A stretch of DNA of 22,942 nt from a virus, in the IMG/VR virus record IMGVR_UViG_3300042350_006161, positions 1 through 22,942 of that record, one strand, 5' to 3'. Shown piece after piece: positions 6,959 to 21,737 of the stretch. Position numbers and translations under genes: made by a program. Position 1 is the first letter of the stretch. Each line of letters opens with the position of its first letter. The notes under the pieces are model-generated. The model made no database searches, was not told the origin of the DNA, and was given only the letters and a program-made list of their open reading frames with translations.

Positions 6959-6971
6959 GGGGGGCGGGGGA

Positions 6972-7009
6972 AGGTTAGGGGTGAAGGGTTAGGAGTTAGT
7001 GGTTAGGGG
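6972..7009. repeat. TTAGGG-type heptamer tract
   Basis: The plus strand reads AGGTTAGGGGTGAAGGGTTA, then GGAGTTAGTGGTTAGGGG. The stop codon of the lipoprotein gene (TAA, 7005-7003) lies in the tract. It fills most of the gap between that gene and the endolysin. Confidence 0.85.
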
Positions 7010-11894: not shown

Positions 11895-11899
11895 GGAGG

Positions 11900-11960
11900 G
11901 GTTAGGGGTTAAGGGTGATGAGTTATGAGTTCGGGGTTAGGGGGTGATGAGTTAGGAGTA
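11900..11960. repeat. TTAGGG-type heptamer tract, about 60 nt
   Basis: The plus strand reads GGTTAGGGGTTAAGGGTGAT, GAGTTATGAGTTCGGGGTTA, then GGGGGTGATGAGTTAGGAGT. About eight units (GGGTTAG, GAGTTAT, GGGTGAT, GAGTTAG). The stop codon of the upstream gene (TAA, 11954-11952) lies in it. Confidence 0.9.
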
Positions 11961-12712: not shown

Positions 12713-12776
12713 TAGAGTTAGGGGTTAGAAGTTAGAAGTTAGAGGTTATGAGTTAGGGGTGAGAAGTTAGGAGTAT
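12713..12776. repeat. TTAGGG-type heptamer tract, about 64 nt (longest)
   Basis: The plus strand reads AGAGTTAGGGGTTAGAAGTT, AGAAGTTAGAGGTTATGAGT, TAGGGGTGAGAAGTTAGGAG. About nine 7-nt units with G/A variation. The stop codon of the tape-measure gene (12769-12767) is inside it, and the next start (12710) is 3 nt after its end. Confidence 0.9.
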
Positions 12777-13912
12777 TTGGGGATGAGGTTGAGGCGGCGG
12801 ATGGTGGCGTCGATGGACTGGAGGAGGCTGGTTTGTTTGTCGCCGGTTTGGGCGACGCGGCGGAGGGCGGCGGTCTGGCGGGCCATCTCTGAAAGCTGCT
12901 TGCTGCCGTCGGCACGGAGCGGATTGAAGGCGCTGCGGCCGGTGCTGGTGTCCATGTCGCCGCGCAGGCCGCCGAGGGCTCCGGCGAAGGCCTGCGTGCG
13001 GGAGAGGCTTTGTTGAGCGCGTTCTTTGAGGCGGTTCGAGATGGCGTCGATGGTCGGGGCCATCTGAGTCATCGCCGCGCCAAAAAAGCCGGTGACGCGG
13101 CCGAGGAGATTTGGGCCGGTGGGGACGACGGGCTTGCCTGCTTCGCTGCGGGCGATGGCGGCGGTGGAGAGCAGACCGCGCGTTGTATCCGAGATGTTAA
13201 GACCACCAATGCGCGCAAGTTCGCGAGCCAGGTCTATCTGCCGCTGCATTTCATCAGCTTTTTGCTTTTCCCCTGCAATGCGCATCCGGCTGACTTGGAT
13301 CTCTTGAATGGCAACACTTGCAATTTGCGACTCAATGCGCTGGCGAGCTTCTGCAGCGGCAAAAGCCTGCTCTTCGGCTTGTTGCATTCTTTCGCTTAAT
13401 GAGGGACCGCCGAAAACTTGAGCGATAGCATCAGTCAAAGTGCCACCAGCGGCGACTTTGTTCAGATCCATTTGCTTCGATGAACGACGATCCACCACTG
13501 TTTCCAGTGATTGAGCCAAACTCGAAACATCCGCGCCCACAAGATCGCGGTTGAGTTTGGTGAAAAAAGCCGTTTCAGCGGCCTCCGCGTCTGCAAACGC
13601 CTTCTTGGCGTTTTCAGCCATGGTAAAAAACGCGCCACCAATAGCGATGACACCACCCGCAATCGCGCCACCGGCCCCAAACGCGGACAAAAGCTGCGAG
13701 CCCTGCTGAGCGAGCACCCTGGTCACACTTGTGCCCATCTGGAGCTGCACGGCGATGTCCTGCACCTGCATGGAGACACCGCCGAGGCTGCGCATGAGGC
13801 CGCCATTCGCGCGAGTCATCTGCTGCGACGAGCGCGCGACTTTGTCTGGCAGTGTGGCGACGACGGCGTCGAACTGCGTTACATCGGCACCGATTTGGAC
13901 TTGGACGGACAT
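12767..13912 (-). CDS. Tail tape-measure-like protein, short (381 aa)
   Basis: It lies directly downstream of the frameshifted tail chaperone pair, the standard place of the tape measure. The N-terminal 100 residues carry the typical text M-Q-V-Q-D-I-A-V-Q-L-Q-M-G-T-S, L-A-Q-Q-G-S-Q-L-L-S-A-F-G and the hydrophobic G-G-A-I-A-G-G-V-I-A-I-G-G-A-F-F seen in siphovirus tape measures. The remainder is mostly alpha-helix with Gln/Glu/Ala and R-E-L-A-R-I-G-G-L-N-I-S repeats. It is shorter than most siphovirus tape measures (often 600 to over 1000 aa), so the tail may be short or part of the protein may have been lost. Confidence 0.78.
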   Translation of the reverse strand: MSVQVQIGADVTQFDAVVATLPDKVARSSQQMTRANGGLMRSLGGVSMQVQDIAVQLQMGTSVTRVLAQQGSQLLSAFGAGGAIAGGVIAIGGAFFTMAENAKKAFADAEAAETAFFTKLNRDLVGADVSSLAQSLETVVDRRSSKQMDLNKVAAGGTLTDAIAQVFGGPSLSERMQQAEEQAFAAAEARQRIESQIASVAIQEIQVSRMRIAGEKQKADEMQRQIDLARELARIGGLNISDTTRGLLSTAAIARSEAGKPVVPTGPNLLGRVTGFFGAAMTQMAPTIDAISNRLKERAQQSLSRTQAFAGALGGLRGDMDTSTGRSAFNPLRADGSKQLSEMARQTAALRRVAQTGDKQTSLLQSIDATIRRLNLIPKYS

Positions 13913-13938: not shown

Positions 13939-13986
13939 AGTGTTAGGAGTTAGGAGTTAAGGGTTAGGGGTGAGGAGTCATGAGTT
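13939..13986. repeat. TTAGGG-type heptamer tract
   Basis: The plus strand reads AGTGTTAGGAGTTAGGAGTT, AAGGGTTAGGGGTGAGGAGT, then CATGAGTT. Six to seven units. It ends at the stop codon of the chaperone fusion (TAA, 13989-13987) and precedes the tape-measure start by about 25 nt. Confidence 0.9.
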
Positions 13987-14525
13987 TTACAGGTAGGCGT
14001 CGAGATCGGAGAGGACGGCATTTGCTTTTGCTTTGAGATCGGAGAGGTTGACCTGGGGGCGATTCGTGAAGTAGCATTTGACGCCGTTGCGGCGGAGGTC
14101 GGCGTGGATGAAGCGGAGGAGGCGCAGGAAGGGCCATGACCACGAGACCACGTCGGGGTCATGCCCGCAGCGAACAGCGGCCCATGTGAGCGACTCGAGC
14201 CAGGGAGGATCGTCCGAGTCGTCTAGGTCAAAGGGACGTCGCCGGAGTCAGTGGTGACGAAGGCGGCGTTGACGGCGGTCAGCGATTCATTGATCACGGT
14301 GAAGACGGGGGCGAGGTCGGAAGGGGAGACGTGCCACAAGTCCACCTTGGCCTGCTTTGCGAGATCCTCGGGTGTGATGGCGGTGACGACGTCCAGCGAG
14401 GCCGAATGAACGATGCGCCACATGACGGCCGCGTGGAAGCGGTCGCGCTGGTCGTTGCTGACGAGTAGAGTAAAGAAGTTGGACCGTTGGAGGAGGTCGT
14501 AGGAAGCGGCGGAGAGGGGGCGCAT
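13987..14525 (-). CDS. Tail assembly chaperone fusion made by -1 frameshift (gpG-T type), about 179 aa
   Basis: The 0-frame protein (100 aa, from 14525) is extended by a -1 slip at CCCTTTG (14235-14229). Past the slip the frame encodes D-L-D-D-S-D-D-P-P-W-L-E-S-L-T-W-A-A, a helical block with F-L-R-L-L-R-F-I-H-A-D-L-R-R-N, and ends S-D-L-D-A-Y-L at the TAA 13989-13987. This -1 frame contains no usable start downstream of its own upstream stop, so it makes sense only as a fusion. Lambda gpG/gpGT and most siphoviruses use the same design just upstream of the tape measure, to coat the tape-measure protein during tail assembly. Confidence 0.8.
14223..14525 (-). CDS. Tail assembly chaperone, gpG-like, 100 aa
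   Basis: This is the unshifted product. It begins M-R-P-L-S-A-A-S-Y-D-L-L-Q-R-S-N-F-F-T-L-L and is mostly helical (A-A-V-M-W-R-I-V-H-S-A, P-S-D-L-A-P-V-F-T-V-I-N-E-S-L). It ends S-G-D-V-P-L-T at TAG 14225-14223, two codons after the slippery heptamer. Chaperones of this class share little sequence. The identification comes from size, helical character, the frameshift site and the next gene being tape-measure-like. ATG 14525 follows a C-rich leader (TTCACGCCCCCC) without Shine-Dalgarno. Confidence 0.72.
   Translation of the reverse strand: MRPLSAASYDLLQRSNFFTLLVSNDQRDRFHAAVMWRIVHSASLDVVTAITPEDLAKQAKVDLWHVSPSDLAPVFTVINESLTAVNAAFVTTDSGDVPLT
14229..14235 (-). other. Programmed -1 frameshift site CCCTTTG
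   Basis: Read on the minus strand in the gpG frame the codons are GTC-CCT-TTG-ACC-TAG. The heptamer C-CCT-TTG fits X-XXY-YYZ exactly, allowing both tRNAs to re-pair as CCC and TTT. The zero-frame stop is two codons later, and the -1 frame stays open for about 80 codons with tail-chaperone-like content. Downstream stimulatory structure was not evaluated. Confidence 0.8.
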
Positions 14526-14533
14526 GGGGGGCG

Positions 14534-14566
14534 TGAAGGGTTAAGGGTTAGGAGTGATGAGTTAGA
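14534..14566. repeat. TTAGGG-type heptamer tract
   Basis: The plus strand reads TGAAGGGTTAAGGGTTAGGA, then GTGATGAGTTAGA. Four units. The stop codon of the upstream 88-aa gene (TAA, 14564-14562) lies in it, and the chaperone start (14525) follows within 10 nt. Confidence 0.85.
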
Positions 14567-15135: not shown

Positions 15136-15150
15136 GGGGCCGAACCGCTT

Positions 15151-15184
15151 GAGTTAAGGGTTAGGGGTGATGGGTTATGAGTTT
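15151..15184. repeat. TTAGGG-type heptamer tract between terminator and gene
   Basis: The plus strand reads GAGTTAAGGGTTAGGGGTGA, then TGGGTTATGAGTTT. About five units. It fills the whole space between the terminator (on its upstream side for minus-strand transcription) and the leader of the gene starting at 15135. Confidence 0.85.
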
Positions 15185-15261: not shown

Positions 15262-15867
15262 TCAAAGTGTCAAAGGCTCCGGCGCGAGCGTGTGCTGCGC
15301 GTCGTGCCGGTAAGTGTGGAGTATGCGGGGGATGTGGTGACCGCGCTGCGCGTGCAGCCGCGCCTGGGCGACCCATGTGAAATCCTCGCCGTAGTTGCTG
15401 TCGAGGAACTGGCAGTGCCTCACCTTGCTGCGGCGCCAGGCGCAGACGTGCCACGCGCCGCGGGTGATGCGTTGATCATCGGGCCCGTCGAGGATGAGCT
15501 TTTCGTCCTTGGCACCGGCTTGGAAGACGACGGTGAAGGGTTTGCCGTTGTAGATGGCAGCTTGCTCGAAGGTGATCACATCGGCCTCCGGTGCGGTGAG
15601 AATGGCGGTGACGAGACTGCCAACGTAATCGGCGGACACATCGTCGTCATCGTCCACGAAGGCAATGAACTCGCCGCGGGCGGCATCAAGAAGGGACTGG
15701 CGCTTGAGGCCGATGGAGCGCGCGCGATTGTCTAGCAGCACAAGGTGCTCGACGGCACCGGGCAGATTCAGCTCGGCGATCTGCGCCTCGATCTTTTCCC
15801 GCAGCGCGTTCGTTTGCGCGGCACGGCTCCAGACGGAGGGTGTGAGGATGGAGAGGTGGGGGGGCAC
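15262..15867 (-). CDS. GT2-family glycosyltransferase (GT-A fold), 201 aa
   Basis: Residues 4-11 (H-L-S-I-L-T-P-S) are the first nucleotide-sugar strand. S-I-G-L-K-R-Q-S-L-L-D-A-A-R-G-E-F-I-A-F-V leads into D72-D-D-D-D76, a DxD-type metal and nucleotide-sugar site. Further on G-E-D-F-T-W is the usual E-D acid/base motif. It is short for GT2, so it may be a stand-alone catalytic domain. The start is GTG at 15867, embedded in C-rich sequence. Together with the two-domain enzyme upstream it probably modifies virion proteins or host glycans; the target is unknown. Confidence 0.82.
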   Translation of the reverse strand: MPPHLSILTPSVWSRAAQTNALREKIEAQIAELNLPGAVEHLVLLDNRARSIGLKRQSLLDAARGEFIAFVDDDDDVSADYVGSLVTAILTAPEADVITFEQAAIYNGKPFTVVFQAGAKDEKLILDGPDDQRITRGAWHVCAWRRSKVRHCQFLDSNYGEDFTWVAQARLHAQRGHHIPRILHTYRHDAQHTLAPEPLTL

Positions 15868-15911
15868 GGGTTAAGAGTTAAGGGTTAGGGGTTAGGGGTT
15901 ATGAGTTAGGG
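15868..15911. repeat. TTAGGG-type heptamer tract between two glycosyltransferase genes
   Basis: The plus strand reads GGGTTAAGAGTTAAGGGTTA, GGGGTTAGGGGTTATGAGTT, then AGGG. Six regular units. The last codons of the upstream enzyme (P-P-N-S-stop) are encoded inside the tract. Confidence 0.9.
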
Positions 15912-17599
15912 GGCACGGTGCGGACTTTTTGGCCGGTGAGGTGCTCGTAGATGGCGGCTCCTTCGGCGTAGCGTTCGGGGGAGTTGTGGGCGGCATAGAT
16001 TTCGTCCCAGCCTTGGCCGTTGTTGAAGAAGGGGTGGTGGTGCTGGATGACGATGTGATTTGCCTGGATGACGACGTCGTCGCGATGGGCGAGCCAGGAG
16101 TGGTAGTCGTCGCTGAAGACGCTCTTGAACTTGGGATGCAGGAAGAAACCTTGCTCCTTGTATCGCAGCCGGTTCATCACGGCGATGCAGAGGAGGTCGT
16201 CGGTGCGGTGGCCGTCGCTGACTTTGAGAACGGCGGGTTGAAGGGTGAGGTATTCGCCGAAGGCCTGTTCGATCATCACGTCCCAGCCCATGGGCGGCTC
16301 GAAGTCGTCGTTGATCTGCACGAGGATCTCGCCACACGACGCGGCGGCGGCGAGATTCCAGGCACCGACGCTGGCCCCCTGCCCCGTCTGGATGACGTGA
16401 CGGTAAACGGTGAGCGGGATGCTGGGCTCGTCGTCGAAGTCGATGGCAAAGATGTGCTCGACGCGGTCAGGATGCGTGGCGCGGTTCAGCCACTGGCGGC
16501 GCGCATCGGCGGCCTGTTTCGGACGACCTCGGGTGGCGTGCAGCAGCGTGATGACGGGATGCGATTGCGCTTTGAGATGGTTGATCTCGCGCACGTCGGC
16601 CTCCTTGAATCGCAGATTGGCACGCAGGGCCATGCCGTGGAGCTGGACGCCGAGATAACCGTAGTATTTGCCGCGGCGATTCCAGATGTATTCAGGCGGC
16701 TCGCTGAGGCCGAGCATGGCCTCGGCATACGAAAGCGCGGCGCGTGGATTGCCAAGGCGCAGCTTGCAGTTCACCATCTCGCCAAAGGCCTCGCGGCGAT
16801 ACGGCACGGCGTTGAGTGCCTGAAGCAAATACTGCTCCTGCGCGCGCGGATTCGTGCTGACCTGCGCGATGTTGATCATGAGCTCGTAGGCTTCGTCCGG
16901 GCCGATGTCGGGATGCTTGAGTGCTTGCTGGGCAATCTTCACGCCTTCTTCAATGCGTCCGACGTAGCGCATCGACTGCCAGAGGTGGAAGAGATGCGAG
17001 AGTGTGCGTTCCGACTCGGGGATGCTCTCCAGAATGCGCAGGTTGCGCTCGTTGTTCGGCGTGCGGTCGTTGTGCGTGGCGTGATGCCACTCGGGCGACT
17101 CCTGCACGATGACGCGCGGCGAATCCATGCTCACCTTGAAGCTCTCATGGATCGGCGAGACCCAGACACCGCAGCCACGGCGCAGAATGCGCTCACGCAG
17201 CACGCAAAGCTGATCTTCCGGCACGACATAGGGCAATGTGACGACATCCGGCCGCTCGGCGGCGATGCGTTTGCGCAGGGCCTGCCATTCATCCAGCGTG
17301 CCGCCATAGACGTCGTCCGTGTCTGCCCAGGCGATGTAATCGCCGGTGGCGAGCTTGAAGGCGAGATTGCGAGCGGCGGCGAAATCATCGACGTGGGACC
17401 ATTCGGCATGCTCGGGCTTGTTGCAATACTCGGCGGTGATGCAGCCGCGTTCGCGGGCGATGTCGAGGCTGGCATCGGGGGATTGATTCCCGATGGCGCG
17501 CACGACGACGATCTCGTCGAAGAGCGAGCCGAAGGAGTCGAGGAAGCGCGGCATCCAGTGCGCGACGTTTCCGGCGATGATGGCGAGGCTGATTTTCAT
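15899..17599 (-). CDS. Two-domain glycosyltransferase with TPR-like linker, 566 aa
   Basis: The N-terminal domain (residues 1-160) is GT2: I-S-L-A-I-I-A-G-N-V-A, F-D-E-I-V-V-V, then R-N-L-A-F-K-L-A-T-G-D-Y-I-A-W-A-D-T-D-D with D93-T-D95-D. Residues about 200-300 are helical with TPR-like spacing (R-I-E-E-G-V-K-I-A-Q-Q-A-L). The C-terminal domain (345-540) is a second GT: P-V-I-T-L-L-H-A-T-R-G-R-P, A-S-V-G-A-W-N-L-A-A-A-A and I-N-D431-D432-F-E-P-P. A closing D-D-Y-H-S-W...H-H-H-P-F-F segment is visible. Such bifunctional enzymes build short glycans. ATG 17599 overlaps the previous stop (ATGA). Late-gene placement suggests capsid or tail glycosylation. Confidence 0.85.
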   Translation of the reverse strand: MKISLAIIAGNVAHWMPRFLDSFGSLFDEIVVVRAIGNQSPDASLDIARERGCITAEYCNKPEHAEWSHVDDFAAARNLAFKLATGDYIAWADTDDVYGGTLDEWQALRKRIAAERPDVVTLPYVVPEDQLCVLRERILRRGCGVWVSPIHESFKVSMDSPRVIVQESPEWHHATHNDRTPNNERNLRILESIPESERTLSHLFHLWQSMRYVGRIEEGVKIAQQALKHPDIGPDEAYELMINIAQVSTNPRAQEQYLLQALNAVPYRREAFGEMVNCKLRLGNPRAALSYAEAMLGLSEPPEYIWNRRGKYYGYLGVQLHGMALRANLRFKEADVREINHLKAQSHPVITLLHATRGRPKQAADARRQWLNRATHPDRVEHIFAIDFDDEPSIPLTVYRHVIQTGQGASVGAWNLAAAASCGEILVQINDDFEPPMGWDVMIEQAFGEYLTLQPAVLKVSDGHRTDDLLCIAVMNRLRYKEQGFFLHPKFKSVFSDDYHSWLAHRDDVVIQANHIVIQHHHPFFNNGQGWDEIYAAHNSPERYAEGAAIYEHLTGQKVRTVPPNS

Positions 17600-18880: not shown

Positions 18881-18914
18881 GGAGTTAGAAGTGAGGAGTT
18901 AGGGGCGGAGTTAG
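18881..18914. repeat. TTAGGG-type heptamer tract between protease-scaffold and capsid genes
   Basis: The plus strand reads GGAGTTAGAAGTGAGGAGTT, then AGGGGCGGAGTTAG. About four degenerate units. The protease stop codon (TAA, 18913-18911) forms its right edge. Confidence 0.8.
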
Positions 18915-21708: not shown

Positions 21709-21737
21709 TGTGATGAGTTAGAAGTGAAGAGTTAGGT
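21709..21737. repeat. TTAGGG-type heptamer tract
   Basis: The plus strand reads TGTGATGAGTTAGAAGTGAA, then GAGTTAGGT. Three to four units. The stop codon of the gpW-like gene (TAA, 21734-21732) lies in it. Confidence 0.75.

Follow-up and report, generated by a model that had tools for sequence, protein, structure and literature searches.

A probable lambda G/GT-type tail assembly chaperone gene with a −1 frameshift signal and a covarying hairpin in an uncultured phage lineage

The overlapping G and T frames and their neighbourhood

The window, i.e., the whole 22,942-base stretch of viral DNA that was analysed, carries capsid, protease, portal, putative chaperone and tape-measure genes on its minus strand. 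Directly upstream of the tape-measure gene lies an overlapping pair of reading frames, here called G and T (Table 1). The 3' end of G reads, codon by codon, GTC CCT TTG ACC TAG, so that the perfect X_XXY_YYZ heptamer is in phase; since a single sense codon, ACC, separates it from the TAG, the stop is the second codon past the heptamer. These features agree with an earlier note made from the letters alone, which had placed CCCTTTG two codons before the G stop and described a −1 frame open for about 80 codons, lacking a start of its own and ending just before the tape-measure gene. Indeed, T runs for 80 codons after the slip site, 78 of them beyond the G stop, and the open −1 frame reaches merely 4 codons 5' of the heptamer. 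The earliest ATG, GTG or TTG in it is a GTG 28 codons in, and a gap of 74 nt separates the T stop from the tape-measure start. The predicted G–T fusion is 179 aa long (99 + 80).

Table 1. Features of the putative chaperone locus and the following gene (window coordinates)
Feature	Position	Strand	Details
G-like ORF	14525..14223	minus	ATG to TAG, 100 aa; predicted chaperone made by normal translation
Slippery heptamer	14235..14229	minus	C_CCT_TTG, in X_XXY_YYZ phase within G
0-frame stop of G	14223..14225	minus	TAG
T half	13987..14229	minus	−1 frame, 80 codons and TAA (13989..13987)
Spacer	14222..14228	minus	7 nt, heptamer to hairpin
Hairpin	14191..14221	minus	proposed stimulator; CGACTCG (14221..14215), 17-nt loop, CGAGTCG (14197..14191)
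Tape-measure protein	12767..13912	minus	381 aa; four PHROG tape-measure families, E 3.6e-8 to 1.4e-3

If the residues Val/Ser-Pro-Leu are encoded at the codon frequencies of eight genes of the window, C_CCT_TTG has a chance of 0.0055–0.0065. We scanned 4885 ORFs from 77 contigs for a heptamer of any type lying in phase no more than 3 codons from the stop, combined with a −1 extension of at least 60 codons, and recovered 46 ORFs. By labels assigned on reading the rows, 18–19 of these are sites at the chaperone position and the remaining 27–28 are background. Elsewhere in the window there is one more such match, a GGGTTTG on the opposite strand.

The best PHROG match of the tape-measure ORF is phrog_8892 (E 3.6e-8), and it also matches Pfam TMP_2 at E 5e-6, which falls under the curated cut-off; tblastn found no match to this protein among phages. 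Neither G, T nor the fusion matched Pfam or PHROGs below E 0.05, a weak criterion as ORF sequence similarity is low between phages: in the part of PMC5009743 that deals with it, the lambda G/GT arrangement is described as conserved in other long-tailed phages despite low similarity of the ORFs. The fusion had no tblastn match among 50,697 phage records. The structural model of G is all helical (pLDDT 87.6), and its fold searches returned nothing significant, with all VIA-align rows at Z < 5; the T model is poor (pLDDT 58.8). This absence of family matches for either half, and of a fold match for G, would fit a genuine −1 frameshift whose product is some other pair of small proteins beside the tape-measure gene. 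We regard that as very unlikely in view of the position directly before the tape-measure gene and of the more distant locus L028: there the equivalently placed G, which has AAAAAAC and is extended in the −1 frame, hits tail assembly chaperone families (phrog_344, E 1.3e-11).

Two glycosyltransferase-like genes (15262–17599) lie between the capsid and tail genes of the window, and no tail-tube gene was recognised among the ORFs searched between capsid and chaperone. The window capsid protein matches 27 Streptomyces phage records (20 of the 27 listed, at 22.7–30.5%). Alignments of T and capsid confirmed no relatives among 84,980 bacterial and archaeal species represented by one genome each.

A degenerate 7-nt repeat (about CYCYTAAC) also forms arrays at gene junctions of the window, in coding orientation, at 21714–21734, 18881–18901, 15867–15908, 15150–15177, 14537–14564, 13946–13973, 12714–12769, 11898–11925 and 6971–7005. 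Four of these nine begin on the preceding gene's stop codon, and two further arrays lie on the other strand. The sequence CTCCTAACNCCTAAC has 49 matches with at most 3 mismatches, against 0.68 expected. The arrays recur in the close relatives L003 and L020 and were not found in 20 other loci checked. A stricter array pattern picked out 83 stretches of viral contigs; at least 4 arrays occur in 7 of the 80 sequences counted, the window included, with two of the 7 coming from one contig.

Conservation of the heptamer, the −1 frame and a downstream hairpin

The locus is present in three other contigs, with G identities of 100, 98 and 97% and T identities of 100, 90 and 89%. Within G, substitutions at the first, second and third positions of the G-frame codons number 1, 0 and 12 against L003 and 3, 1 and 15 against L004, corresponding to 11 and 14 synonymous and 2 and 3 non-synonymous codon changes, respectively. 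After the heptamer, counts by codon position of the −1 frame are 6, 3 and 21; 5, 4 and 16; and, between L003 and L004, 1, 1 and 12. Thus, third positions of the −1 frame take 21 of 30, 16 of 25 and 12 of 14 changes, nearly all of which would be non-synonymous if read in the other frames. As the third-position bias moves from the G frame to the −1 frame, the selected frame switches at the heptamer. Most of the non-synonymous changes in T lie in its C-terminal part.

More distant relatives were recruited by a capsid protein search (L013–L017) and through the T alignment (L038). Alignments with L013, L014, L016 and L017 gave identities to the window of 30–31% for G and 41–51% for T. In each of L013–L017 and L038, an in-phase CCCTTTG is separated from the TAG by one codon, and T lies in the −1 frame. 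With L002 and L008 (no different from the window at this locus) and L015 (almost a copy of L016) left out, this holds for all eight distinct sites, the window included, and the distance from heptamer to TAG is constant in seven loci and L038. CCCTTTG recurs across three divergent lineages. Among lineages at 41–51% identity, 30 of the 88 T columns are invariant, two of them inside the heptamer.

The earlier note had proposed comparing homologues for the heptamer and the −1 frame, and both are conserved down to these identities. It had further named two observations that would speak against a frameshift: relatives in which the −1 frame is not conserved, and a sequencing difference restoring the frame. 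The −1 frame is kept in the relatives, and no frame-restoring difference occurs in the other three metagenome contigs, of which one has the identical sequence at this locus and two have diverged. The window is a metagenomic contig, so that the frame break could in principle be an assembly error, or the mark of a decayed gene in which G and T once formed one frame. We assign this a close to negligible probability: other contigs repeat the arrangement, as do lineages sharing 30% identity in G, with the same distance to the TAG, and both halves show an excess of synonymous change.

The follow-up added a feature absent from the earlier note, namely a hairpin downstream of the heptamer. At all eight distinct sites, a perfect Watson–Crick helix starts at a spacing of exactly 7 nt, with 7 bp in the window, L003 and L004, 8 bp in L013, L014 and L016, 9 bp in L017 and 11 bp in L038. 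According to PMC4066793, stimulatory structures generally begin 5–8 nt past the slippery sequence. Pairs 1 to 7 of the helix read CGACTCG/CGAGTCG in the window and L004, CGACTCC/GGAGTCG in L003, L013, L014 and L016, and CGATAGC/GCTATCG in L017 and L038. Pairs 4, 5, 6 and 7 are therefore altered on both sides while none of the first seven is broken at the eight sites, although with just three arm sequences these changes represent few independent events. The pairs were counted by script because the loop differs by 2 nt, which leaves the 3' arms unaligned in the MAFFT DNA alignment.

Two comparisons bear on how often such a helix arises by chance. First, under synonymous recoding of T, the probability of an equal or longer helix at a spacing of 7 is 0.024–0.029 for the window group and 0.003–0.008 for the others; with other codon weights and spacings of 4–10, five of six distinct sites fall below 0.05, with L003 at 0.065. 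Second, a motif scan with CCCTTTGNNCTAGACGA retrieved 23 contigs, and we checked 22 loci with the 17-nt motif. The eight chaperone sites, again labelled by reading the rows, have helices of 7–11 bp at a spacing of 7, and all 14 unrelated copies form just 1–4 bp there, the scanned motif covering bases 1–3 of the 5' arm in both sets alike. When the 50 nt that follow the heptamer are folded, their energy is better than that of 98% of synonymous recodings at only three of the eight sites; the window's own site stands at 13%, with average values for L014 and L016. Folding energy being uninformative at several sites, the placed helix was compared with synonymous recodings instead, and it is on this helix, not on folding energy, that the case for the hairpin rests.

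T is conserved as a protein, and in the window, L004, L017 and L038 no start precedes its conserved core; the T frames of L004 and L038 lack any ATG, GTG or TTG. In L003 a TTG lies 12 codons into the frame, and in L013, L014 and L016 a GTG lies 24–26 codons upstream of the heptamer. Some potential start thus occurs at six of the eight sites, which, together with a close overlap of the kind typical of coupled genes, might suggest that T is translated as a gene of its own, either from its own start or by reinitiation once G has terminated. This reading appears highly improbable to us: the start positions vary between relatives, the earliest one in the window comes well inside T, two relatives have none, and the conserved heptamer and hairpin would be left unexplained. 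A −1 frameshift remains the preferred reading.

Near the capsid gene, three of the relatives carry a TTTTTTA two codons before an ORF stop (L014 at 8550, L015 at 2161, L016 at 9000), opening −1 into a downstream ORF that is glycosyltransferase-like in L014; TTTTTTA matches also occur in L050–L053. We rejected these sites in L014–L016 as frameshift candidates, since the −1 reading is FFM, with an ATG directly after the run, and ordinary initiation is therefore probable.

Related chaperone loci with other heptamers

Searching 86 contigs with a profile of T halves yielded 39 matches; 32 had E <= 1e-8 and lay on the coding strand. At the junction, all of these 32 carry a heptamer in phase (23 GGGAAAG and nine CCCTTTG), and 30 are followed within 150 nt by an ORF of at least 150 aa. 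As the profile was built from the groups of the window, L058 and L087, recovery of those groups is circular; L055, L059, L063, L066, L068, L070, L071, L078–L081 and L114 lay outside its training. The rest of the 86 contigs include some that are short, some that end early and some with other heptamer types. Of ten following ORFs compared with PHROGs (L003, L038, L043, L045, L046, L049, L084, L087, L100 and L108), nine match tape-measure families, L084 only at E 0.002, and L100 has no match; the ORF following in L058 also matches tape-measure proteins. In profile comparisons, the window T is linked to the L058 group with a probability of 91.3% (E 9.6e-7, 49 columns) and more weakly to the L087 group (64%), and G to G at 58.8%. 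An unrooted T tree of 27 rows, which carries a long-branch warning, places the CCCTTTG rows between two GGGAAAG groups.

In other relatives the heptamer is GGGAAAC or AAAAAAC, and a −1 extension again precedes a tape-measure gene, which adjoins or overlaps in L009, L012, L028 and L030. On collapsing 40 sites to 28 at 95% identity, a helix of at least 7 bp is found at six of six CCCTTTG, three of four GGGAAAC, two of 14 GGGAAAG and two of four AAAAAAC sites, the last with loops of at least 40 nt; the rows being related, we attach no probability to this contrast. It is an evenly balanced call whether these loci form a homologous chaperone family in which the heptamer was exchanged between GGGAAAG and CCCTTTG with the fusion kept, a fixed covarying hairpin accompanying the change. 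If so, heptamer and hairpin would have been traded off against each other, holding the ratio of G to G–T. Counting against such a trade, AAAAAAC, of low efficiency in E. coli, has the helix at just half of its sites.

The capsid proteins of L009/L043 and L012/L044 are 85% identical to that of the window, but their tape-measure proteins are 35% identical to the window's over 203 residues, and tblastn did not link their chaperone, with GGGAAAC, to that of the window. These phages thus seem to exchange a module made up of the chaperone and tape-measure genes.

Proposed mechanism and comparison with known systems

We are strongly confident that the locus represents a tail assembly chaperone gene of the lambda G/GT type in which a −1 frameshift makes the G–T fusion, so that the phage very probably produces two versions of a tail-assembly helper protein. 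Sequence comparison establishes the overlap and its phase, selection on the −1 frame, heptamer conservation, hairpin covariation and the position before the tape-measure gene; that slippage occurs, its rate and the chaperone role we infer from these. Most ribosomes would read G and stop at the TAG, yielding the shorter protein. In a minority, the hairpin may hold the ribosome while CCT is occupied by tRNA-Pro and TTG by tRNA-Leu; the ribosome would then slip back one base to CCC TTT and read through T. By analogy with lambda, G would coat the tape-measure protein and the fusion would recruit the tail-tube subunit.

The mechanism is already known, and the uncultured phage lineage is a new instance of it; what is added is the hairpin, together with a possible swap of heptamers between related chaperones. 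The G/GT frameshift would thereby extend to a lineage without a matching chaperone in the phage records searched. Further, loci with CCCTTTG plus hairpin, GGGAAAC plus hairpin, and GGGAAAG mostly without one could offer a natural set for studying how the ratio is kept up under a changing slip signal, and annotators might use motif and hairpin together to find frameshifted chaperone genes.

In the part of PMC4066793 concerned with motif efficiency in E. coli, C_CC.U_UU.G is among 18 motifs shifting at more than 0.10% without stimulators, U_UU.G alone is weakly shifty, G_GG.A_AA.G is among the most efficient motifs, and G_GG.A_AA.C and A_AA.A_AA.C are of low efficiency. Our text search, a weak one that missed this very paper, where the motif is written with dots, found no report of CCCTTTG in a tail chaperone; CCCUUUG with frameshift led only to West Nile virus, and CCCTTTG with frameshift and slippery to nothing.

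The GGGAAAC sites (L009/L043, L012/L044, L023 and L024) resemble the window in their −1 extension of 82–97 codons, in a helix of 6–7 bp starting 7 nt after the heptamer and, in L009 and L012, in having the tape-measure gene next. They differ in that the TAG directly follows the heptamer, in that G and T have no tblastn match to the window's and, in L023 and L024, in a 258-aa ORF between T and the tape-measure gene. The GGGAAAG loci (L058, L087, L099 and others of the same capsid family) share with the window the profile match of their T halves, the in-phase heptamer and, where tested, a tape-measure-like following ORF, whereas their G stop lies 0–14 codons away and their few helices of at least 7 bp (at two of 14 sites) occur at other spacings.

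The lambda slippery heptamer is GGGAAAG, and the gpG/gpGT system was reportedly worked out by Levin in 1993 and Xu in 2004, 2013 and 2014. Where the earlier note spoke of the classic lambda G/GT arrangement, the description needs qualifying in its details: unlike lambda, the window has CCCTTTG, a covarying hairpin at a fixed spacing and halves that match no named chaperone family in Pfam or PHROGs. In architecture and predicted mechanism the description holds, as both systems have a small ORF before the tape-measure gene, a slip site near its stop and a −1 fusion.
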